From Amylibacter sp. (GTDB taxonomy: Bacteria; Pseudomonadota; Alphaproteobacteria; Rhodobacterales; Rhodobacteraceae), in NCBI GenBank assembly GCA_016764475.1, contig JAESRV010000037.1, positions 31,950-64,842 on the forward strand: DNA of 32,893 bases, written 5' to 3'. Both the position numbers and the translations under genes were made by a program. Under the pieces are notes generated by a model. The model was given only the letters and a program-made list of their open reading frames with translations. It did not search any database and had not been told where the DNA came from. Below, one piece after another: positions 7,528 through 21,032 of the stretch; the stretch's first letter is position 1, and each line of letters begins with the position of its first letter.

Positions 7528-9441
7528 ATGAATAGGTGTTCTTTGCGGCGTTATAGGTTCATATATATAGCTACTTTATGTTGTGCTGTTTTTGCGCCCA
7601 ATTCTTTGATCGCAGAAACGGTTTCACATGGGGGGGAAGATGCGGCAGCGGCTGCGCACACTGACGTACGTGATGAAAAACCTGAAGCTGTTGCGCTGGT
7701 TGCAGATAACCCCCAGCCATCAAGCCTTGCCCTGCCATCTGATCTGGATCTTTCCAAGGTCACAAATGTGGGGTTTTTAAAGCTACGGCGCGATCTGATT
7801 GATGCGGTACATGAAAGCGCAACGGGTCTATCTTCATCCCAAGAAACCACCGACACAATTCTTAGCTTGGCCGAACTTTATCTGGCACACGCAATGGCTG
7901 TAGAGGGCCAGTCGATTGTAATTGAGCTTGAAGACAGGGATCTAACCGAAAAACAAAAGGCACGCACAGCGGCACTGGCGATTGCGGTGCATATCTTTGA
8001 TCCATGGGATATGGCATTGTCGGAAGCAAGCATATTGCTGCTAGAGGGCGCAGATAAATGGCCCAAACATGCTTTGTTCCGGTCGCTTTACTATGCAAAA
8101 AAAGGCACCCCCGAAAAAGCCCGGCCATTCTTGACGGAAGCCGTGAAAGATATTCAGGCATTTCCAGAGCCGATCAAAGAAATGGCACTACCAGACCTTT
8201 TGAACACGGCTATTGACCTTGGCGAATGGGAAGCCGCCCGCACGTTGGCCGCATTTTTTGTGGAAACTCCGCGTCTGAATAAAGGTAGTGCATATCACTA
8301 CCTTTTGGGACGCACTGCTAAAAACGGGCGTGATTATTTGGTTGCCTTTGATCATTTTGTAGAAGCCACAAAAGGATTGGATCAGTGGTCACAGCTTGCC
8401 AGCCTGTCTTTGGTAAAGATGGGGTTGGCAACAAAAACGCTGACCCCAGCAGATGCACGCACACTGTTGGAGCAAATCCGTTTTGCCTGGCGTGGCAACG
8501 CTTTATCTTCTGAGGTGTTAAAGCTTTTAGTCAAAACCGAACTATCCCTCAATGATATACCCGCAGCGTTAGAAGTGCTTGGCGAGATCATCTACATTAA
8601 TGATGATGCGGATGCGGTCAAAGCCGCAAAAGAACAGTCAAATGTGCTGTTAAATTTATATTATGAAGACGGTGCCTCTGGTAAAATATCGCTTAGCAAA
8701 TTTATGAATGGTCATAAGCGCATTACCCAAGATTATAGGTTTCAAGAAGGTTATGACCTGTTTTCTGAAAGATTTGCCGACCGGTTCTTTGCCATTGGTG
8801 CCTCTAACGAGGCGGCGTTTGAGTATGAAACAACCTATAACTATCTTTCTGTAGCGCAAGATTTGGGTTTATTCGAAGTAACGTCAGAACGGTTGGATAA
8901 ATTACATCTGAAACAAGTGGCAGCCCTTATGCGTGGTGGGCAGTATGACCTTGCAGAGCCGATATTAACGTTGGGCCCTGAAAGCACTGCCCCCGAAATA
9001 CTGGATCAATTTACGTTCTTAAAAGCAGAGGTTTTCACCCGAACCGGCAAGTTGCAATCTATTCTTGAAACCCAAGCGCACAAACCTTCCATTGATTACC
9101 TGCGGATTAAAGCCCACGCTTATTTTTCAATGGAAAACTGGCAGAATGCGGCAAAAACTTACTATATTATATGGCAGCGCATGGGCAATGATACTTTGTT
9201 TACCGATACGTTGAATTTATTTCTTTCAGCCTATCGCAACAATGACAGCCAGTTGACCATAAAGTTGGCAAAAGCATTTCCAGACTTAACAAAAATACCG
9301 CAATGGCAACAAATTGCAGATTGGCTGGTTGAAGACCGAAGTGCGACAAGTGTTTTGCAAAAAGACACTATTACAACGGGTATTTCCGATGCATCGCGGG
9401 TTTTGGATGTGATGGAAACCATAAATACATCCTCACAATGA
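7528..9441 (+). CDS. Secreted helical-repeat (TPR-like) protein of unknown function
   Basis: 637 residues. An N-terminal signal peptide (basic RRYR followed by a hydrophobic stretch to about residue 29, likely cut after SLIA) predicts a periplasmic location. After an Ala-rich linker the rest is alpha-helical with degenerate TPR-like repeats, for example YHYLLGRTAKNGRDYLVAFD and IKAHAYFSMENWQNAAKTYY, where small residues recur at repeat positions. I recognise no catalytic motif. It sits between the rod genes and flgE-flgK-flgL on the plus strand, 108 bp before flgE, so a role in periplasmic assembly or motor function is plausible, as with other periplasmic repeat scaffolds; this is inference from context. 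There is no clear ribosome-binding site before the ATG and a -10-like TATAAA is very close, so translation may be leaderless or the start may be internal. Confidence 0.85.
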   Translation: MNRCSLRRYRFIYIATLCCAVFAPNSLIAETVSHGGEDAAAAAHTDVRDEKPEAVALVADNPQPSSLALPSDLDLSKVTNVGFLKLRRDLIDAVHESATGLSSSQETTDTILSLAELYLAHAMAVEGQSIVIELEDRDLTEKQKARTAALAIAVHIFDPWDMALSEASILLLEGADKWPKHALFRSLYYAKKGTPEKARPFLTEAVKDIQAFPEPIKEMALPDLLNTAIDLGEWEAARTLAAFFVETPRLNKGSAYHYLLGRTAKNGRDYLVAFDHFVEATKGLDQWSQLASLSLVKMGLATKTLTPADARTLLEQIRFAWRGNALSSEVLKLLVKTELSLNDIPAALEVLGEIIYINDDADAVKAAKEQSNVLLNLYYEDGASGKISLSKFMNGHKRITQDYRFQEGYDLFSERFADRFFAIGASNEAAFEYETTYNYLSVAQDLGLFEVTSERLDKLHLKQVAALMRGGQYDLAEPILTLGPESTAPEILDQFTFLKAEVFTRTGKLQSILETQAHKPSIDYLRIKAHAYFSMENWQNAAKTYYIIWQRMGNDTLFTDTLNLFLSAYRNNDSQLTIKLAKAFPDLTKIPQWQQIADWLVEDRSATSVLQKDTITTGISDASRVLDVMETINTSSQ

Positions 9442-13825: not shown

Positions 13826-14176
13826 TTAATGGCTTGTCTTTTTGGCAGGCTCTGCGCTTTCTTCCGGCGCCACCCCCATAAGCACCATCAGTTCTTTGCG
13901 CATCCGATCAAGAATATCGGCAGGTAAAGGGTTGCGGGTGGTCGGGCTGGTGATCTTGATGATCACGGCTGCATCATCTGCCTCAACGTCTTCTTCAGAT
14001 GTTAAGGCTTCTTCAGTAGGGTCTGTTTCAGATGTTAAGGCAAACTGGGTCGGATCGTCTGCCTTAGCGTCTTCTTTATTGGGGCCTGTTTCCGATGCTA
14101 AGGCAAGCTGGGCCATTAGCAAAAAAAGGCCGGTAAAGAGCCCGCAAACAACACTGCGCTTTATGCCCGTGATCAT
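13826..14176 (-). CDS. Small exported acidic protein, unknown function
   Basis: 116 residues. An N-terminal signal peptide (basic GIKRS, hydrophobic core, likely cut after LALA) predicts export to the periplasm. The mature part is strongly acidic and contains an imperfect internal repeat (ALASETGPN, ALTSETDPT, ALTSEEDVE), then a more conserved-looking tail with PLPADILDRMRKELMVLMGV. The ATG overlaps the motA stop (ATGA), so it is translationally coupled to MotA, in the place where motB is often found. It has no transmembrane helix, peptidoglycan-binding domain or plug, so it is not MotB. It could be a stator or motor accessory; that is inferred from context. Confidence 0.75.
   Translation of the reverse strand: MITGIKRSVVCGLFTGLFLLMAQLALASETGPNKEDAKADDPTQFALTSETDPTEEALTSEEDVEADDAAVIIKITSPTTRNPLPADILDRMRKELMVLMGVAPEESAEPAKKTSH
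13990..14120 (-). repeat. Short imperfect direct repeats in the acidic protein gene
   Basis: Three imperfect DNA copies around the core TTCAGATGTTAAGGC / TTTCCGATGCTAAGGC lie between about 13990 and 14110, the latter two followed by AAACTGGG / AAGCTGGG. They encode the acidic repeat units and suggest expansion by slippage or duplication. This part of the protein probably tolerates length change. Confidence 0.6.
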
Positions 14177-15042
14177 GCGGCCGTTGCCAATGCTTTTTGC
14201 GCCTCTTCGACTTCGTAGAAGTTGGGTTGCATGCTGGTAGGAATGTTTGCACGACCCATTTCAACACACACACTGGGGGGATAATCAGCTACCATGGCCA
14301 CGAATATATCACGGATAATTGTGTAAAAAGCACCGTCTTCATCAACGATCTGCCCCAAACGCCCGGCAATCGGTGCGACCATACAATAAGCCAGAAACAC
14401 GCCCAGGAATGTGCCCACAAGTGCACCACCGATCATACCGCCCAGAATTTCCGGCGGTTGATCAATCGAGCCCATGGTTTTGATAACCCCCAAAACCGCC
14501 GCAACAATCCCAATCGCAGGCAGGCCATCGGCCATAACGGTTAAAGCACCAACTGGCCCCATAGCCTCATGATGATGTTTTTTAATCTTACGGTTAATGA
14601 TGTCTTCGGTTTCATATTTGTCATCAAACTGCATCGCTAACATACGAAAACTGTCAGTGATCAATTCGGGCGCAAAGTGATCTGCCAGAATTTTAGGGTA
14701 ACGCTGGAAAATAGCACTTTCTTTTGGGTTTTCGATGTGATCATCCAACCCCAGAATGCCATCGGTTTTATAAACCTTGGTCAATTCATACATCAGACTA
14801 AGCAGATCACCATAATCTGCCGTTTTCCATTTCGGGCCTTTAATCACAGTCATAACCCCTTTACCCGACCCTTTCACAACAGCAAATGAATTGGCGACAA
14901 CAAGTGAACCAATAGAGGCCCCGCCGATCATCATACCTTCATAGGGCAAGGCGTGCAGCACTACGGCCATACTGCCACCTGACAAAACAAACCCGCCAAA
15001 GACCAGCCCGAAAACCATTAAAAGCCCAATTACAAAGTTCAT
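14173..15042 (-). CDS. motA: Flagellar motor stator protein MotA
   Basis: 289 residues with the four membrane segments of MotA: about 3-22, 35-53, 170-192 and 203-225. The conserved prolines are present: Pro175 in DGLPAIGIVAAVLG and Pro224 in MVAPIA, equivalent to Pro173 and Pro222 of E. coli MotA, which couple ion flow to torque. The large cytoplasmic loop (about 60-165) carries the charged patch that meets FliG. MotA needs MotB for an ion channel, but no motB follows; the two genes behind it are an exported acidic protein and a coiled-coil protein. Separate motA and motB loci are known in alphaproteobacteria. A good promoter lies upstream (TTGACT and TATACT, minus strand). Confidence 0.97.
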   Translation of the reverse strand: MNFVIGLLMVFGLVFGGFVLSGGSMAVVLHALPYEGMMIGGASIGSLVVANSFAVVKGSGKGVMTVIKGPKWKTADYGDLLSLMYELTKVYKTDGILGLDDHIENPKESAIFQRYPKILADHFAPELITDSFRMLAMQFDDKYETEDIINRKIKKHHHEAMGPVGALTVMADGLPAIGIVAAVLGVIKTMGSIDQPPEILGGMIGGALVGTFLGVFLAYCMVAPIAGRLGQIVDEDGAFYTIIRDIFVAMVADYPPSVCVEMGRANIPTSMQPNFYEVEEAQKALATAA

Positions 15043-15154: not shown

Positions 15155-15172
15155 CTCTAAATAGGATTAACC

Positions 15173-16087
15173 ATGAATAGCTTGAAAGCTTTTGTATACT
15201 TTGCAGAATATGAAGTTGTAAAAGACATGATGCCCGACTGGCCATCAGAAATCAGATTGGCCTTGGGCTTGCACGCAAACGGAAAGTGCGAACTGGTTGT
15301 GTTTCATCACAATGAGGGTAGCCAGATAATCAAAAGAATGGCCCGCATCCTAAAGCTTCCTGTTGGCAATTTTGGCGTGGTACCCGAAAGACATGGTTAT
15401 CCAACAAAAATCATACGCTTTTCTGATCAGCAGCTGCTTTTGAAGCTGGTCACAGAAAAAGATGCTTTGTGCGAAACCGCTTCAGATTATGCCATAAATT
15501 ATCGGTTTGCCGAAGAAGAAGGCTTTGACCCGCTTCATTTCACCAGCCTTGGGCATAAAGACAAAAAACCTGTCAGAATTAACCAACCCAAAGACAGTGC
15601 GTTGGTTGTACCTTTTGCATCACGACGCAGTCAGACCAAAATGGATAAGGCTGCCACCCCGCAAGAGATTTACTATAAAGGCCGCTTTGCTGAACTGGCA
15701 CTGATCGAAATGCGTGGCGAATATATACGTGTTACGCTGAATCCAGACTTGGCCACCCCTGATCTAGCCGTCATCAAGGCAACAAAGGTTGGGCAAAGAA
15801 ACGGGCAGAACCAATTTATACTTGAACGTTCCCTGCTTGCGGAATGGAAATCTGGCAACGCTGCTATCATTGAAATTCCAACCCAGAAGTTATCCGGCAG
15901 ATTATCACCTAATTACTTTAAACACCCATATATTGAAGCGGTAATCATTGTGCCCAATGGTATTTTTGTGACTTATAATTTAAAAATTAAATACCCTGAT
16001 ACGGGCTCTAAATCGGTAAGCTATCCTTTCCATGAAAATGCGATACGGGGGTTAACCTTTGCGGATAACCAAAAGATATATAAATGA
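15173..16087 (+). CDS. Unknown 304-residue protein, first gene of glycosylation cassette
   Basis: 304 residues with no signal peptide or membrane helix, so probably cytoplasmic. I do not recognise the family. The N-terminal part (about 1-110) looks like a mixed alpha/beta domain; a polar linker (about 125-165) leads to a second, beta-rich region (about 170-300). No nucleotide-binding or catalytic motif stands out. Its TGA overlaps the ATG of the glycosyltransferase/methyltransferase gene (ATGA), so the two are translationally coupled and probably act together. Possible roles are acceptor recognition, a cofactor or a regulator of modification. A palindromic operator candidate lies just upstream, and TTAACC directly precedes the ATG. 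Confidence 0.85.
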   Translation: MNSLKAFVYFAEYEVVKDMMPDWPSEIRLALGLHANGKCELVVFHHNEGSQIIKRMARILKLPVGNFGVVPERHGYPTKIIRFSDQQLLLKLVTEKDALCETASDYAINYRFAEEEGFDPLHFTSLGHKDKKPVRINQPKDSALVVPFASRRSQTKMDKAATPQEIYYKGRFAELALIEMRGEYIRVTLNPDLATPDLAVIKATKVGQRNGQNQFILERSLLAEWKSGNAAIIEIPTQKLSGRLSPNYFKHPYIEAVIIVPNGIFVTYNLKIKYPDTGSKSVSYPFHENAIRGLTFADNQKIYK

Positions 16088-17424
16088 AATGCGCCATCAT
16101 AACATCGGTTGGGCCAGGGCACGAACAGCTGTTGGAAAACAGTTGCCGCCCATCTGTGATCGCGGCGGAAAACTACAGTGTCGGGCCATTTAATACGATC
16201 CGGCATATTGTGATGGATGATACCAAAGGCCTTTATGGCCGTTCAAAACGGCGCAATGAAGCGGTGCAGCAAGCGGTTGCTGAAGGCTATGAGTGGCTGT
16301 TTTTTCTGGATGCGGATGACGTGATGACCCCAAATGCTTTTGATCGGTTTGGGCATTGTCTGGGCGCAGAGCCCGCATTGGATGTGGTTTGGGGTTTGAT
16401 CTGTGAATTTGATGGCGATGAGGAACCTCAATTACGCCCGAATCAGGTAGAAAACCTGAACAATCGCAAAGAATTTTTGGCGGTAGAGCCGTTTCTGTCA
16501 ATACAAATAGGGGCTTTTATGCGCACCAAATGTGTGGCGCGGTTTGGCTTTGATGAGGCTATGGATACGGGTGAAGACTTCAAACTTTATTATCAGCTAT
16601 GGGAAAATTATCAGTGCGCCAAACGCCCCGAAATATTTTTTATCAATCGCCGAGGCGCCCATAGTACAGGCCCCCGTGCGGCCACAGGCGAAGATTGGCG
16701 TATCAGTGTATCGGCGCAATGGGCCGAACAGCTGGCAAAAAACCCGATTTGGGCACGTGTTTCTTCGGCTGGAAATGATGTGAAAATGCTGATCAATAAT
16801 CCAAATGATCTAATTCAGCGGGCGCATCTGAACGGGTATTTTTTTGAAGCAGATTCTTTGGAAAAACTACACGCACTGATTAAAAACCCCGCCCCGCATA
16901 TTTTGGAAGTGGGGGCCAATATTGGCAATCACGTGGTTTGGTATGCCCAAAACCTGAATGCGGCGCGAATTTACCCGGTAGAGCCAAACCCCTCGGCCTT
17001 GAATATTTTACGGGAAAATATTTCCACCAATAAGCTTGATGACCGCATTGATACACGCGGAATGGGGTTTGGTGCTGGGAAAAGCTCTGGGCGGTTTCGG
17101 GTCGAGACCGATGATATTAACAATCTGGGGGCAACGCGGCTGGTGGCAGATGACAGAGGTGAAATTGAAACCCAGACATTGGATATGCTTATGGGTGACG
17201 ATAAAGTTGATTTTATCAAAATAGATGCCGAGGGAATGGAACTTGATGTGTTGGAAGGTGCCGCCGCTTTGATAGCCCGCGATAAGCCAGTGATCTGGGT
17301 TGAAGTATTGCGCCAGAACCAAATGGGGTTTGCCCAGAACTGGTGTCGAAATGCTGGTTACCAAATAGTTGACAGCACGGCTTATGTGAACACAATAGAT
17401 TACTTTGCAATACCGAGGGATTGA
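16084..17424 (+). CDS. Bifunctional glycosyltransferase - FkbM-family methyltransferase
   Basis: 446 residues with two fused enzymes. Residues 1 to about 225 are a GT-A fold, family-2-like glycosyltransferase: the metal/nucleotide-sugar motif is LDADD (Asp76, Asp78, Asp79), and TGEDFKLY at 162-169 supplies the acidic pair expected near the acceptor site. Residues about 255-446 are an FkbM-type SAM-dependent methyltransferase: SAM loop EVGANIGNH at 275-283, acidic Glu300 in YPVEPNP, and the FkbM signature DFIKIDAEGMELDVLEGA at 376-393. It would add a sugar and O-methylate it. No membrane anchor is present, so the acceptor is probably a cytoplasmic protein or nucleotide-linked glycan; given the location, a flagellar protein is the best guess. 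It overlaps the preceding gene by 4 bp, and the following start lies one base after its stop. Confidence 0.88.
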   Translation: MKCAIITSVGPGHEQLLENSCRPSVIAAENYSVGPFNTIRHIVMDDTKGLYGRSKRRNEAVQQAVAEGYEWLFFLDADDVMTPNAFDRFGHCLGAEPALDVVWGLICEFDGDEEPQLRPNQVENLNNRKEFLAVEPFLSIQIGAFMRTKCVARFGFDEAMDTGEDFKLYYQLWENYQCAKRPEIFFINRRGAHSTGPRAATGEDWRISVSAQWAEQLAKNPIWARVSSAGNDVKMLINNPNDLIQRAHLNGYFFEADSLEKLHALIKNPAPHILEVGANIGNHVVWYAQNLNAARIYPVEPNPSALNILRENISTNKLDDRIDTRGMGFGAGKSSGRFRVETDDINNLGATRLVADDRGEIETQTLDMLMGDDKVDFIKIDAEGMELDVLEGAAALIARDKPVIWVEVLRQNQMGFAQNWCRNAGYQIVDSTAYVNTIDYFAIPRD

Positions 17425-17425
17425 T

Positions 17426-19288
17426 ATGCAAACCATGAACCTATCGCGCACCGAACGCCGCCGCCGCTATGCAAAGACGGCAAAACTATATGGTATAAAG
17501 GGCGAAAACGGGCTGACGGTTCATCATGCCTATCAGGCATTGTTTGAAAAAGATCTGGAAAAAACCATGGCATTGATTGTGCCGATTTCACGGTCTGACC
17601 CAAAGAACAAACATCCTTGGATTATTCTGGGCGGGGCGGCACTAGAAAAGGTTGAGGGGGCCACTGCAAAAGTATTTTTTGAACAGGCCCGCGAGATTTC
17701 ACCAAAAGATCCGGTGATTTTAGGCGGTATAGCTAAGGCACATGTTCTGGAGGCCGAGGTTGAGCCTGCTGTGCAGATGATGGAAAAAGCCTTTGCTGCG
17801 GGGAATGTCGATAAGGGGTTAATAACCTTGTTTCTTGAACTGATGTCACGCATGGGCCGCAATTTGAAAGCCGTCGACATTGTAAGCCCGATTGTTAAAA
17901 AACTGAATGATGCAGCACTTTGTTTCAGGCTGGGATCATTGCTGACAGATGCGGATGAAACCAATGCGGCGGTGCCTTGGTTTGAGCGCGCCTTTCAACT
18001 TGACCCAAAACCCGAAGCCCATCAAATCGGCCGGTTGCGCGGTCTGCTTTATTCACGTCAATTTAAAGCGGTTGAAGTAGCGGCCCCTGAATTGTTGGAA
18101 ACGGTCGAAAACAAAGATGACGTGATGGTGCTATACCTGATGGCTTTGCGGCTGCTGGGTCAATACGATAAAACCGCCAAGCTGGTTGACAGTTTTGAGT
18201 TTACAGACCCGAAAGCCTTTGCGTTAGCGCGTGGATTAATGGCCAATGTCTATCAGGATCAGGAACAATGGGACCGTGTGGAACCGGCTTATGTAGAAGC
18301 CATGCATATCGCTGGCGAGCCTGGCAAGATTGCCAAAGCCCTAGGGGTTTATAAGTATCGTGAGCATGATTTTGTTGATGGGTTTCCCTATTATTCAGAC
18401 AGGTTTCCAGCACAAAACCGTAAAACCATCCCGTTACAAAATGCCGCCCCTGAAAATCTAGCGGGGCTGGAACGCATCCATCTTATGGGTGAGCAGGGCA
18501 TCGGCGATCAACTGGCTTTGTTAAGCTTACTGCGGATCGCACCAATTGATACGGAAAAGACCGAAGTGATTTATGTCAGCGACGCGCGGTTTGAACCTGT
18601 GTTGCAAGACAACGGGCTGAATATCAGTTTCATATCGCAAGATCAGTTTTTTAATGAGCCTAGAAATTTACAGGCAAATGAGCTGGTTTATCTGGGCGAC
18701 TTAAGCCAATATCTTGGGGCAAAACCGCTAACTGCAATTAACGGGGCTTATCTGAAGCCCAATGAAAAACGTCTGACACATCTGAAAAACAAGTACCAAA
18801 CCAAGGCAAACGGGCGGCCTATCATTGGGGTGGCTTGGAACAGTGCCAGCTTGATCGGGCATATGCGCTCACTACCCTTGATCGAGCTGCTTGCCTGCAT
18901 CAAGGAAGATGCGCTTGTGATCAATTTGCAATATAACGCCAGCCCCGAAGAGATTAGGGCGGCACAAATTATGCGGCCAGATCTAGAGATTTTTGTCGAC
19001 AAGGAAGTTGATCAAATGACCGATCTGAGCGGCTTTGCCGCACAGATCGCCGCCTTGGATCATGTGGTGACAATTGACAACACAACCGCACATTTCTGCG
19101 GTGCACTTGGTCACATTGATACCCATGTATTTATTCCGCTGGGGTCTGAATGCATGTGGTATTGGGGCAGAGCGGGTAAGGTTGATCCGTGGTATGGCAA
19201 CCTGAACCTGCACCGCCAAACAAAATTGCGCGATTGGGCTGGGCCAATTGATTCTGTTGCCCGCCATTTTGTATCTAAAGCCCCATAA
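17426..19288 (+). CDS. TPR-containing glycosyltransferase (GT41/GT9-like C-terminus)
   Basis: About 620 residues. The start is taken at ATG 17426, just after the upstream stop and about 6 nt behind CGAGGGA; an in-frame ATG at 17405 would overlap the upstream gene. The N-terminal half (to about residue 330) is helical with TPR-type repeats (NAAVPWFERAFQLDPKPEAH). The C-terminal half is a GT-B-like domain: HLMGEQGIGDQLALLSLL resembles the start of ADP-heptose/TPR-GT domains, and TIDNTTAHFCGALGHIDTHV followed by WYWGRAGKVDPWYGNLNLHR is the donor-binding end seen in TPR-linked transferases of bacterial flagellin-modification loci. Soluble TPR-GT proteins modify proteins in the cytoplasm. With the coupled GT-FkbM gene this suggests flagellar protein glycosylation; the target, possibly flagellin, is not encoded here. 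Confidence 0.85.
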   Translation: MQTMNLSRTERRRRYAKTAKLYGIKGENGLTVHHAYQALFEKDLEKTMALIVPISRSDPKNKHPWIILGGAALEKVEGATAKVFFEQAREISPKDPVILGGIAKAHVLEAEVEPAVQMMEKAFAAGNVDKGLITLFLELMSRMGRNLKAVDIVSPIVKKLNDAALCFRLGSLLTDADETNAAVPWFERAFQLDPKPEAHQIGRLRGLLYSRQFKAVEVAAPELLETVENKDDVMVLYLMALRLLGQYDKTAKLVDSFEFTDPKAFALARGLMANVYQDQEQWDRVEPAYVEAMHIAGEPGKIAKALGVYKYREHDFVDGFPYYSDRFPAQNRKTIPLQNAAPENLAGLERIHLMGEQGIGDQLALLSLLRIAPIDTEKTEVIYVSDARFEPVLQDNGLNISFISQDQFFNEPRNLQANELVYLGDLSQYLGAKPLTAINGAYLKPNEKRLTHLKNKYQTKANGRPIIGVAWNSASLIGHMRSLPLIELLACIKEDALVINLQYNASPEEIRAAQIMRPDLEIFVDKEVDQMTDLSGFAAQIAALDHVVTIDNTTAHFCGALGHIDTHVFIPLGSECMWYWGRAGKVDPWYGNLNLHRQTKLRDWAGPIDSVARHFVSKAP

Positions 19289-19664: not shown

Positions 19665-21032
19665 TTAAGTTAGCTTTGGCTGTTGTGTGGGTAATTCAAT
19701 ATGGATCATCGCATCGCTAAGTAGTTTATACAGCTCGGCAAAGGATTGATCGGCGTTAACGCTTTGGTTTTTGCGTTGCGCCAGAAATTCCTCTGCAAGG
19801 TTGAAAAACTTGATTGCGGCATCAATATCTGGGTCAGTACCTGTCTTATAGGCCCCGATACGGATCAGTTCTTCCATATCGTTATAGGTCGCCAAAGCAC
19901 TGCGCGCCGCCTGAAGCACGGTGTATTCCGCTTCGGAATGGCAATTGGGTAACATCCGTGAAAGGCTTTTTTGAATATTCACAGCAGGATAACGGCCCTG
20001 TTCGGCAATGTGGCGATCCAGCACGATGTGACCATCCAGAATACCGCGTACCGCATCGGCAATCGGTTCATTCATATCATCACCATCAACCAAAACCGTG
20101 AAAAGGCCGGTAATATCGCCTGCGCCTTTCGGTCCCGGCCCTGCACGTTCCAACAATCTGGGCAATTCGGAAAACACGGTTGGCGGATAGCCTTTGGTTG
20201 TGGGCGGCTCACCCCCCGACAGACCAATTTCGCGTTGGGCCATGGCAAAACGGGTGATACTATCCAACAACAACAGCACCTGTTTACCCTGGTCACGAAA
20301 ATATTCAGCTATCGTCATGGCCATCCAAGCCGCCTGCCTGCGCATAAGCGGGGGTTCATCGCCTGTGGATACAACCAAAACAGTGCGCGCCATACCTTCT
20401 TGCCCTAAATCTTCTTGAATGAAGTCCTGCACTTCGCGGCCCCGTTCCCCGATCAGACCAGCCACGATCACATCGGCCTCACCATTACGCGCAAACATAG
20501 CCATCAAGGTTGATTTACCAACACCAGAGCCTGCAAATACACCCATTCTTTGACCACGGCAAAGCGGCGTAAAAATATCAACGGTTTTGATATTGGTCGC
20601 AAGCCTGTCACCAACCCGGCGCCGATCATATGCGGAAAGCGGGGGGGCTTTCAGGGATTGCGGTTTGGTGCCTTCAAAAAGCGGGCCTTTATTATCAAGT
20701 GGCTGCCCTAAAGCGTTCATCACCCGCCCCACCCAAGATGCGTCAGGTCTGATAACATTGCCCTGCGTGGTTAATTCTACAGGGTCACCAACAGCAACCC
20801 CATCCCAAGTTCCAAAAGGCAACACATGTGTGCCCAACGTATCTACCCCGACAACTTCGCCAAGTATTGAATTTGACCTGCCATGCACTAAACAACGTTG
20901 ACCGATGCCCATTGCGCGTTCCAAGCCTGAAACGGTTAAAGATAACCCGGTAACAGCACTTACTTCCCCAACTATCTTTGACGAATCAAGGTTTCTTGCA
21001 AACATTGATAATTCTGAAAACGGCTGATACAT
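19665..21032 (-). CDS. fliI: Flagellum-specific export ATPase FliI
   Basis: 455 residues, full length. It is the cytoplasmic ATPase of the flagellar type III export system, related to F1 beta. The P-loop AGSGVGKST lies at 167-175 with Lys173; the GERGRE motif at 195-200 carries catalytic Glu196; Walker B QVLLLLD ends at Asp257; the conserved SGGEPPTTKGYPPTVFSELP follows at about 272. It is alone on the minus strand, divergent from flgB across an 82-bp region with a perfect CtrA box; its ribosome-binding site is AGGA, 6 nt before the ATG. Its usual neighbours fliH and fliJ are not adjacent. Confidence 0.98.
   Translation of the reverse strand: MYQPFSELSMFARNLDSSKIVGEVSAVTGLSLTVSGLERAMGIGQRCLVHGRSNSILGEVVGVDTLGTHVLPFGTWDGVAVGDPVELTTQGNVIRPDASWVGRVMNALGQPLDNKGPLFEGTKPQSLKAPPLSAYDRRRVGDRLATNIKTVDIFTPLCRGQRMGVFAGSGVGKSTLMAMFARNGEADVIVAGLIGERGREVQDFIQEDLGQEGMARTVLVVSTGDEPPLMRRQAAWMAMTIAEYFRDQGKQVLLLLDSITRFAMAQREIGLSGGEPPTTKGYPPTVFSELPRLLERAGPGPKGAGDITGLFTVLVDGDDMNEPIADAVRGILDGHIVLDRHIAEQGRYPAVNIQKSLSRMLPNCHSEAEYTVLQAARSALATYNDMEELIRIGAYKTGTDPDIDAAIKFFNLAEEFLAQRKNQSVNADQSFAELYKLLSDAMIHIELPTQQPKLT

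Follow-up and report, generated by a model that had tools for sequence, protein, structure and literature searches.

What do the three genes that stand between motA and fliI in the flagellar cluster of this Amylibacter genome do, do they form one glycosylation system, and which protein would such a system decorate? A preliminary description of the locus read them as a three-gene cassette that puts an O-methylated glycan on a flagellar subunit (flagellin, hook or junction protein) before export. The window, by which we mean the whole 32,893-nucleotide stretch of DNA that was analysed, comes from a draft genome of 3.04 Mb in 145 contigs, and domain searches place a flagellar cluster in it. Its features that matter here are the following (P1, P2 and P3 are ORF1, ORF2 and ORF3, respectively):

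14173..15042, minus strand: motA of the fla2 type (PF20560, PF01618), divergent from P1
15173..16087, plus strand: P1, 304 aa, a fla2-specific flagellar protein
16084..17424, plus strand: P2, 446 aa, a GT-A-like glycosyltransferase fused to an FkbM methyltransferase
16207..16440, plus strand: stretch of P2 matched by PF00535 (residues 42–119), including LDADD
16906..17364, plus strand: FkbM domain of P2 (residues 275–427; PF05050, E 1.2e-16)
17426..19288, plus strand: P3, with a TPR half (residues ~1–330) and a glycosyltransferase-like half (~345–620)
19665..21032, minus strand: fliI (PF00006, PF18269), the downstream neighbour in this genome

The gene arrangement first described agrees with these coordinates: motA and fliI flank three plus-strand ORFs, the first two of which (P1 and P2) share 4 bp (ATGA), and a 1-bp gap separates the P2 stop from the ATG of P3 at 17426 (an in-frame TTG is present at 17405). 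P1, P2 and P3 are the only long plus-strand ORFs in this interval, and no sugar-biosynthesis genes were found between motA and fliI. The start codon of P1 lies partly within TTAACCAT (15167–15174), presumably a CtrA half-site.

The three motifs that had been ascribed to a single chain, LDADD, EVGANIGNH and DFIKIDAEGMELDVLEGA, are all located in P2. The FkbM half of the proposed fusion is well over the curated cut-offs (PF05050, 61.7 vs 22.7 bits; TIGR01444, 87.6 vs 37.7 bits), whereas the GT-A half of the window protein, taken alone, does not reach its cut-off (PF00535, 21.0 vs 23.3 bits); a PF00535 match at E ≤ 0.01 is nevertheless found in 7/7 P2 proteins scanned, and LDADD is conserved in all 31 aligned P2 proteins. 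The window genome has five FkbM matches in total, with two more close together at contig C98:3777-6902.

P3 had been described as a TPR-guided glycosyltransferase, and its TPRs are clear (TPR_19 in 27/27 P3 proteins), but its C-terminal half is tied weakly to glycosyltransferase family 9: PF01075 matches one of the 27 proteins, the match to RfaC is far under cut-off (E 0.0028), and the plasmid protein H30, annotated as a TPR glycosyltransferase, is 31% identical to P3 over residues 284–612. A PDB search found no sequence relative of this half. So weak a glycosyltransferase signal favours a reading in which P3 is a TPR flagellin-binding factor with no active glycosyltransferase and either P2 alone or neither protein is catalytic. 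We think this unlikely, as residues of the catalytic half, for example the DNTTAH stretch at 551–556 of the window P3, are nearly invariant across the 27 P3 proteins and the 31%-identical relative carries its TPR glycosyltransferase annotation.

How widely does the arrangement occur? A P3 profile scan, in which 77 loci were kept from the best 80 of 267 relatives, found near full-length P3 at 30 loci (L104–L133) with 38–84% identity; next in rank are the L134 fragment at the end of a contig (47%) and, after it, matches at ≤32%. The names of the 30 loci are, we assume, those of Rhodobacterales genera or Rhodobacteraceae, except for one named only Alphaproteobacteria. Among these best 80 of 267 relatives, motA, P1 and P3 are adjacent in 30/30 full-length P3 loci and P2 is present in 29/30, so the P1-P2-P3 arrangement beside motA is not due to chance. 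Where P2 is present, it overlaps P1 by 4 bp in 21/29 loci, and it is separated from P3 by 1 bp in 13/29 or overlaps it by 4 bp in 9/29 (together 22/29); two annotated cases are those of Salipiger abyssi pPABY5 and Salipiger sp. CCB-MM3. Full-length P2 and P3 are found in five of the 14 fla2-type (P1-bearing) genomes of a 149-genome sample of the order, and no full-length P3 was found outside the motA-adjacent site in that sample. In a search of 385 genomes of the class, the window's own match scored 1002 bits and the next best 235 bits. The searches found neither P1 nor P2 in the three other sampled genomes of the window's genus, which gave P3-like matches that were no more than partial and no MotA at E 1e-60; they are therefore uninformative on the module.

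P2 and P3 are an added module of the fla2-type cluster, tied to flagellar genes. Polysaccharide loci often contain FkbM and GT2-like domains, and the two enzymes might on that account make an LPS or capsule sugar and lie in the flagellar cluster by accident. The preliminary description had itself raised the question of whether homologues sit with LPS or capsule genes; instead, all 30 full-length P3 loci (among the best 80 of 267 relatives) adjoin motA and none was found elsewhere in the order sample, which makes such an origin highly improbable. The fragment L134:5-544 lies on a contig that also has flgA, flgG and flgH, and L134 is probably a further module carrier. On another alphaproteobacterial contig (L145:2521-15889) several P3-like TPR transferase matches follow one another, with a fliI-like gene nearby.

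P1 belongs to the core of the fla2-type flagellar cluster, and the P2-P3 module probably joined the operon of this gene. A search of the 149 order genomes with the window MotA gave 14 genomes at 61–100% identity and, well apart from them, a second class at ≤54%, and the 14/149 genomes in which P1 was found are these same 14. In 13/13 of the other P1-bearing order genomes, P1 stands next to motA and is divergent from it. On Marinovum algicola pMaD5, named as the fla2 reference in the available part of PMC12363192, it occupies the same place by motA and is annotated as hypothetical; the window has the same combination of a fla2-type MotA and a divergent P1, and we assign its cluster to the fla2 type on that basis. 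This type differs from the Fla2 system of Cereibacter sphaeroides, whose gene order (in the available part of PMC10954123) to our own reading looks like that of the fla1 type of PMC12363192.

Because P1 is also present where P2 and P3 are absent (9/14 P1-bearing order genomes have no full-length P2/P3, and module-free plasmid clusters carry P1 as well), we place it outside the glycosylation set; thus, of the cassette originally proposed, the linkage of P2 with P3 beside motA holds and the membership of P1 does not. It might be argued from the presence of P1 at 30/30 module loci (among the best 80 of 267 relatives) and from its frequent overlap with P2 (above) that all three genes are one system in which P1 serves the glycosylation enzymes as adaptor or acceptor, but P1 occurs in 14/14 fla2-type clusters of the order sample, of which nine lack full-length P2/P3, and in plasmid clusters that have no module, which makes this quite unlikely. 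No Pfam or NCBIfam family was recognized among 19 P1 members scanned, only isolated weak matches being found, and an AlphaFold2 model of P1 (pLDDT 75, pTM 0.45) has confident folded parts at residues ~1–125 and 172–267. Many P1 relatives have a C-terminal hydrophobic and probably membrane-spanning segment, as judged by eye and from hydropathy, which is seemingly missing from the P1 of the window and of L104–L107; the module-free clusters L094, L096 and L101 have the N-terminal part of P1 only. Elsewhere in the window, positions 7528–9441 (upstream of flgE) encode a 637-aa protein without a Pfam match, relatives of which occupy the corresponding position in other fla2 clusters; it may work on the motor side in the periplasm, as MotK or MotC do.

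If P2 and P3 act on a flagellar subunit, which one is it? The window flagellin aligns end to end with the solved 273-residue flagellins FljL, FljM and FljN, which we take to be Caulobacter proteins, and we compared flagellins within the same genomes by the length of their central region (residues 118–205 of the window FliC). With a cut-off that was chosen after the first 40 flagellins had been inspected, this region is 85–87 residues long in 37/37 flagellins of the intact-module class, 0/7 of the degenerate class (P2 decayed or lost) and 0/17 module-free flagellins, with near misses of 83, 84 and 88 residues among the last. An earlier count gave 26/26 for intact-module genomes, 0/4 where P2 is decayed or lost and 0/14 for module-free flagellins. 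Flagellins added after the cut-off was chosen, first four new ones and two near-duplicates and then 11 more of intact genomes, all agreed with it; four rather than six are taken as new because the two of L102 match L089 (central lengths, identical MotA rows). The counts include close relatives (L125/L128 and L117/L132 are near copies) and two degenerate-class flagellins on contigs other than the module's (L296, L303), take L108, L122, L126 and L127 as genomes G078, G023, G020 and G100, respectively, and leave out a 274-aa ORF that failed the filter (L302, module-free genome G138), the genome of L118 and the flagellins of L101 and L211. No flagellin was found in the genome of L105.

When the comparison is paired on supported branches of the tree, 4/4 contrasts point the way expected (p = 0.125; six are available on the best tree), and Ser/Thr richness, at 1.3/4 tree-aware pairs, does not hold up. 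Six FliC positions, Thr122, Thr123, Thr142, Ser154, Thr157 and Thr159, are Ser or Thr in 37/37 intact-class flagellins and less often elsewhere, and are putative glycosylation sites as candidates only. FlgE (428–436 aa), FlgK (468–473 aa) and FlgL (345–361 aa), compared in 13 intact, 4 degenerate and 8 module-free clusters (20 fetched regions and five from annotation or the window), show little variation in length over all classes. In the degenerate class FlgL is a little shorter (345–353 vs 354–360 aa), which counts against a pure flagellin effect.

These lengths make flagellin the best-supported candidate target of P2-P3, as FlgE, FlgK and FlgL do not covary with the module likewise; since they vary so little between classes, a hook or junction protein is disfavoured, and only the flagellin part of the target suggested at the outset is supported by the comparison. 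The flagellin pattern could instead reflect shared ancestry, the real target being another flagellar or motor-side protein (FlgE, FlgK, FlgL, P1 or a component of the stator). Such a target would fit the facts that the module's neighbours are P1 and motA rather than fliC, that the tree-aware support for flagellin is limited to the four contrasts above, and that FlgL is slightly shorter where the module is degenerate. Nonetheless, FlgE and FlgK lengths do not track the module, P1 occurs with and without it, and FlmG, the known TPR-guided enzyme, acts on flagellin (available part of PMC7591256), and we regard a target other than flagellin as rather unlikely.

The history of the module can be followed on a 47-row MotA tree, in which 32 rows have the module and 15 do not. 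The module label needs seven changes on this tree, at least five of them forced by well-supported branches; shuffled labels average 12.8. The tree, which is rooted at its midpoint and leaves room for horizontal moves, is compatible with a single gain above a Sulfitobacter-like branch and with six losses. Even strains named Alloyangia pacifica differ, the module being present in DSM 26894 (L123) and absent from YSBP01 and T6124 (L123 vs L209 and L212). P1 of YSBP01 is shortened and ends at a TAG, and the sequence that follows is that found after the P3 stop in L123 and L124; this is consistent with a deletion, which is not proven because the TAG overlaps the stop of a convergent regulator gene.

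P2 is missing from L124 and decayed in L123, L100 and L130, where its glycosyltransferase part is still 0.59–0.60 identical to that of the window while the identity of its methyltransferase (FkbM) part is 0.39, 0.45 and 0.24, respectively; in six other P2 relatives checked the methyltransferase part is similar to the glycosyltransferase part or higher. P3 persists in the genomes with decayed P2, and thus P2 is not required for P3 retention. Distances between P3 proteins follow those between the MotA proteins (Spearman 0.60, with 0/999 permutations as high), as do P1 distances (Spearman 0.86). P3 diverged faster in the lineages with decayed or lost P2: its identity to L109 is 0.46–0.47 for L123 and L124 vs 0.59–0.60 for L115 and L133 at an equal MotA identity of 0.87. 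In these lineages the TPR half of P3 changed more than the other half, as would be expected were the TPR half to read the flagellin, although relaxed selection could also explain it.

We lean, though not strongly, towards the view that P2 and P3 work together in the cytoplasm as an O-glycosylation module specifically for the fla2-type flagellin, with an FlmG-like action and another sugar. The TPR half of P3 would bind flagellin, and its C-terminal glycosyltransferase would add a first sugar to Ser/Thr of the flagellin central region before export; the GT-A domain of P2 would then attach a further sugar, and its FkbM domain would O-methylate the glycan. Here the enzyme activities, the order of the steps (including their placement before export), the O-methylated glycan, the sugar and the sites are all inferred. 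The donor sugar is probably one other than a nonulosonic acid: NeuB (PF03102) was absent from 5/5 module genomes searched, with a positive Caulobacter control, and the sugar should therefore differ from pseudaminic acid. Absence of NeuB does not mark the module, because 8/9 module-free genomes searched also lack it.

A more tentative possibility, which we put forward with some doubt, is that this nonulosonic-acid-free route, in which a TPR transferase and a glycosyltransferase/O-methyltransferase make a methyl-capped glycan, co-evolves with the flagellin itself like a lock, in several separate lineages. The methyl-capped glycan, on a fixed-length central hairpin of a minimal flagellin, would replace the missing outer domain, and decay of the methyltransferase would free the central region for changes in length.

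P1, as a core flagellar gene of the fla2 type, is thereby set apart from the glycan enzymes, and the locus offers a naturally replicated test of the role of a flagellin glycan, since close relatives have a full module, a decayed methyltransferase or none, and their flagellins differ according to module state. If the proposed mechanism is true, TPR-guided glycosylation of flagellin would come in a second kind, which uses a different sugar and occurs in marine bacteria.

How does the module compare with known systems? As described in the available part of PMC7591256, Caulobacter FlmG has 596 residues, a TPR half that binds flagellins and a GT-B half that glycosylates them with pseudaminic acid as donor. 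P3 resembles it in its length of ~600 residues, N-terminal TPRs, C-terminal transferase-like half and flagellar role, a likeness drawn from that description rather than from alignment, and the flagellins of module genomes are similarly short. Unlike FlmG, P3 has a GT/FkbM partner and is encoded within the fla cluster, and FlmG requires pseudaminic acid (NeuB), which the 5/5 module genomes searched lack; because this pseudaminate (NeuB) hallmark was not found, we do not file P3 as an FlmG member, and P2-P3 would at most work like FlmG. The flagellin glycosylation islands of Enterobacteriaceae and Geobacillus, as far as the available parts of PMC4875605 and PMC5109656 describe them, also hold glycosyltransferases with FkbM or other methyltransferases, some fused, inside the flagellar locus. 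They contain sugar-biosynthesis genes as well, whereas the motA–fliI interval has none, and the Enterobacteriaceae islands lie between fliC and fliA, whereas P2-P3 is beside motA, ~25 kb from fliC. The fla2 cluster of Marinovum algicola pMaD5 has the same gene families and P1 next to motA but no P2 or P3 by motA/P1; the main text of PMC12363192, on the fla2-type cluster, has no word starting with "glycos", and our literature searches found no paper on the P2-P3 module. The best reading of these sequence comparisons is that P2-P3 is a compact, putatively two-enzyme variant of flagellin glycosylation set beside motA.
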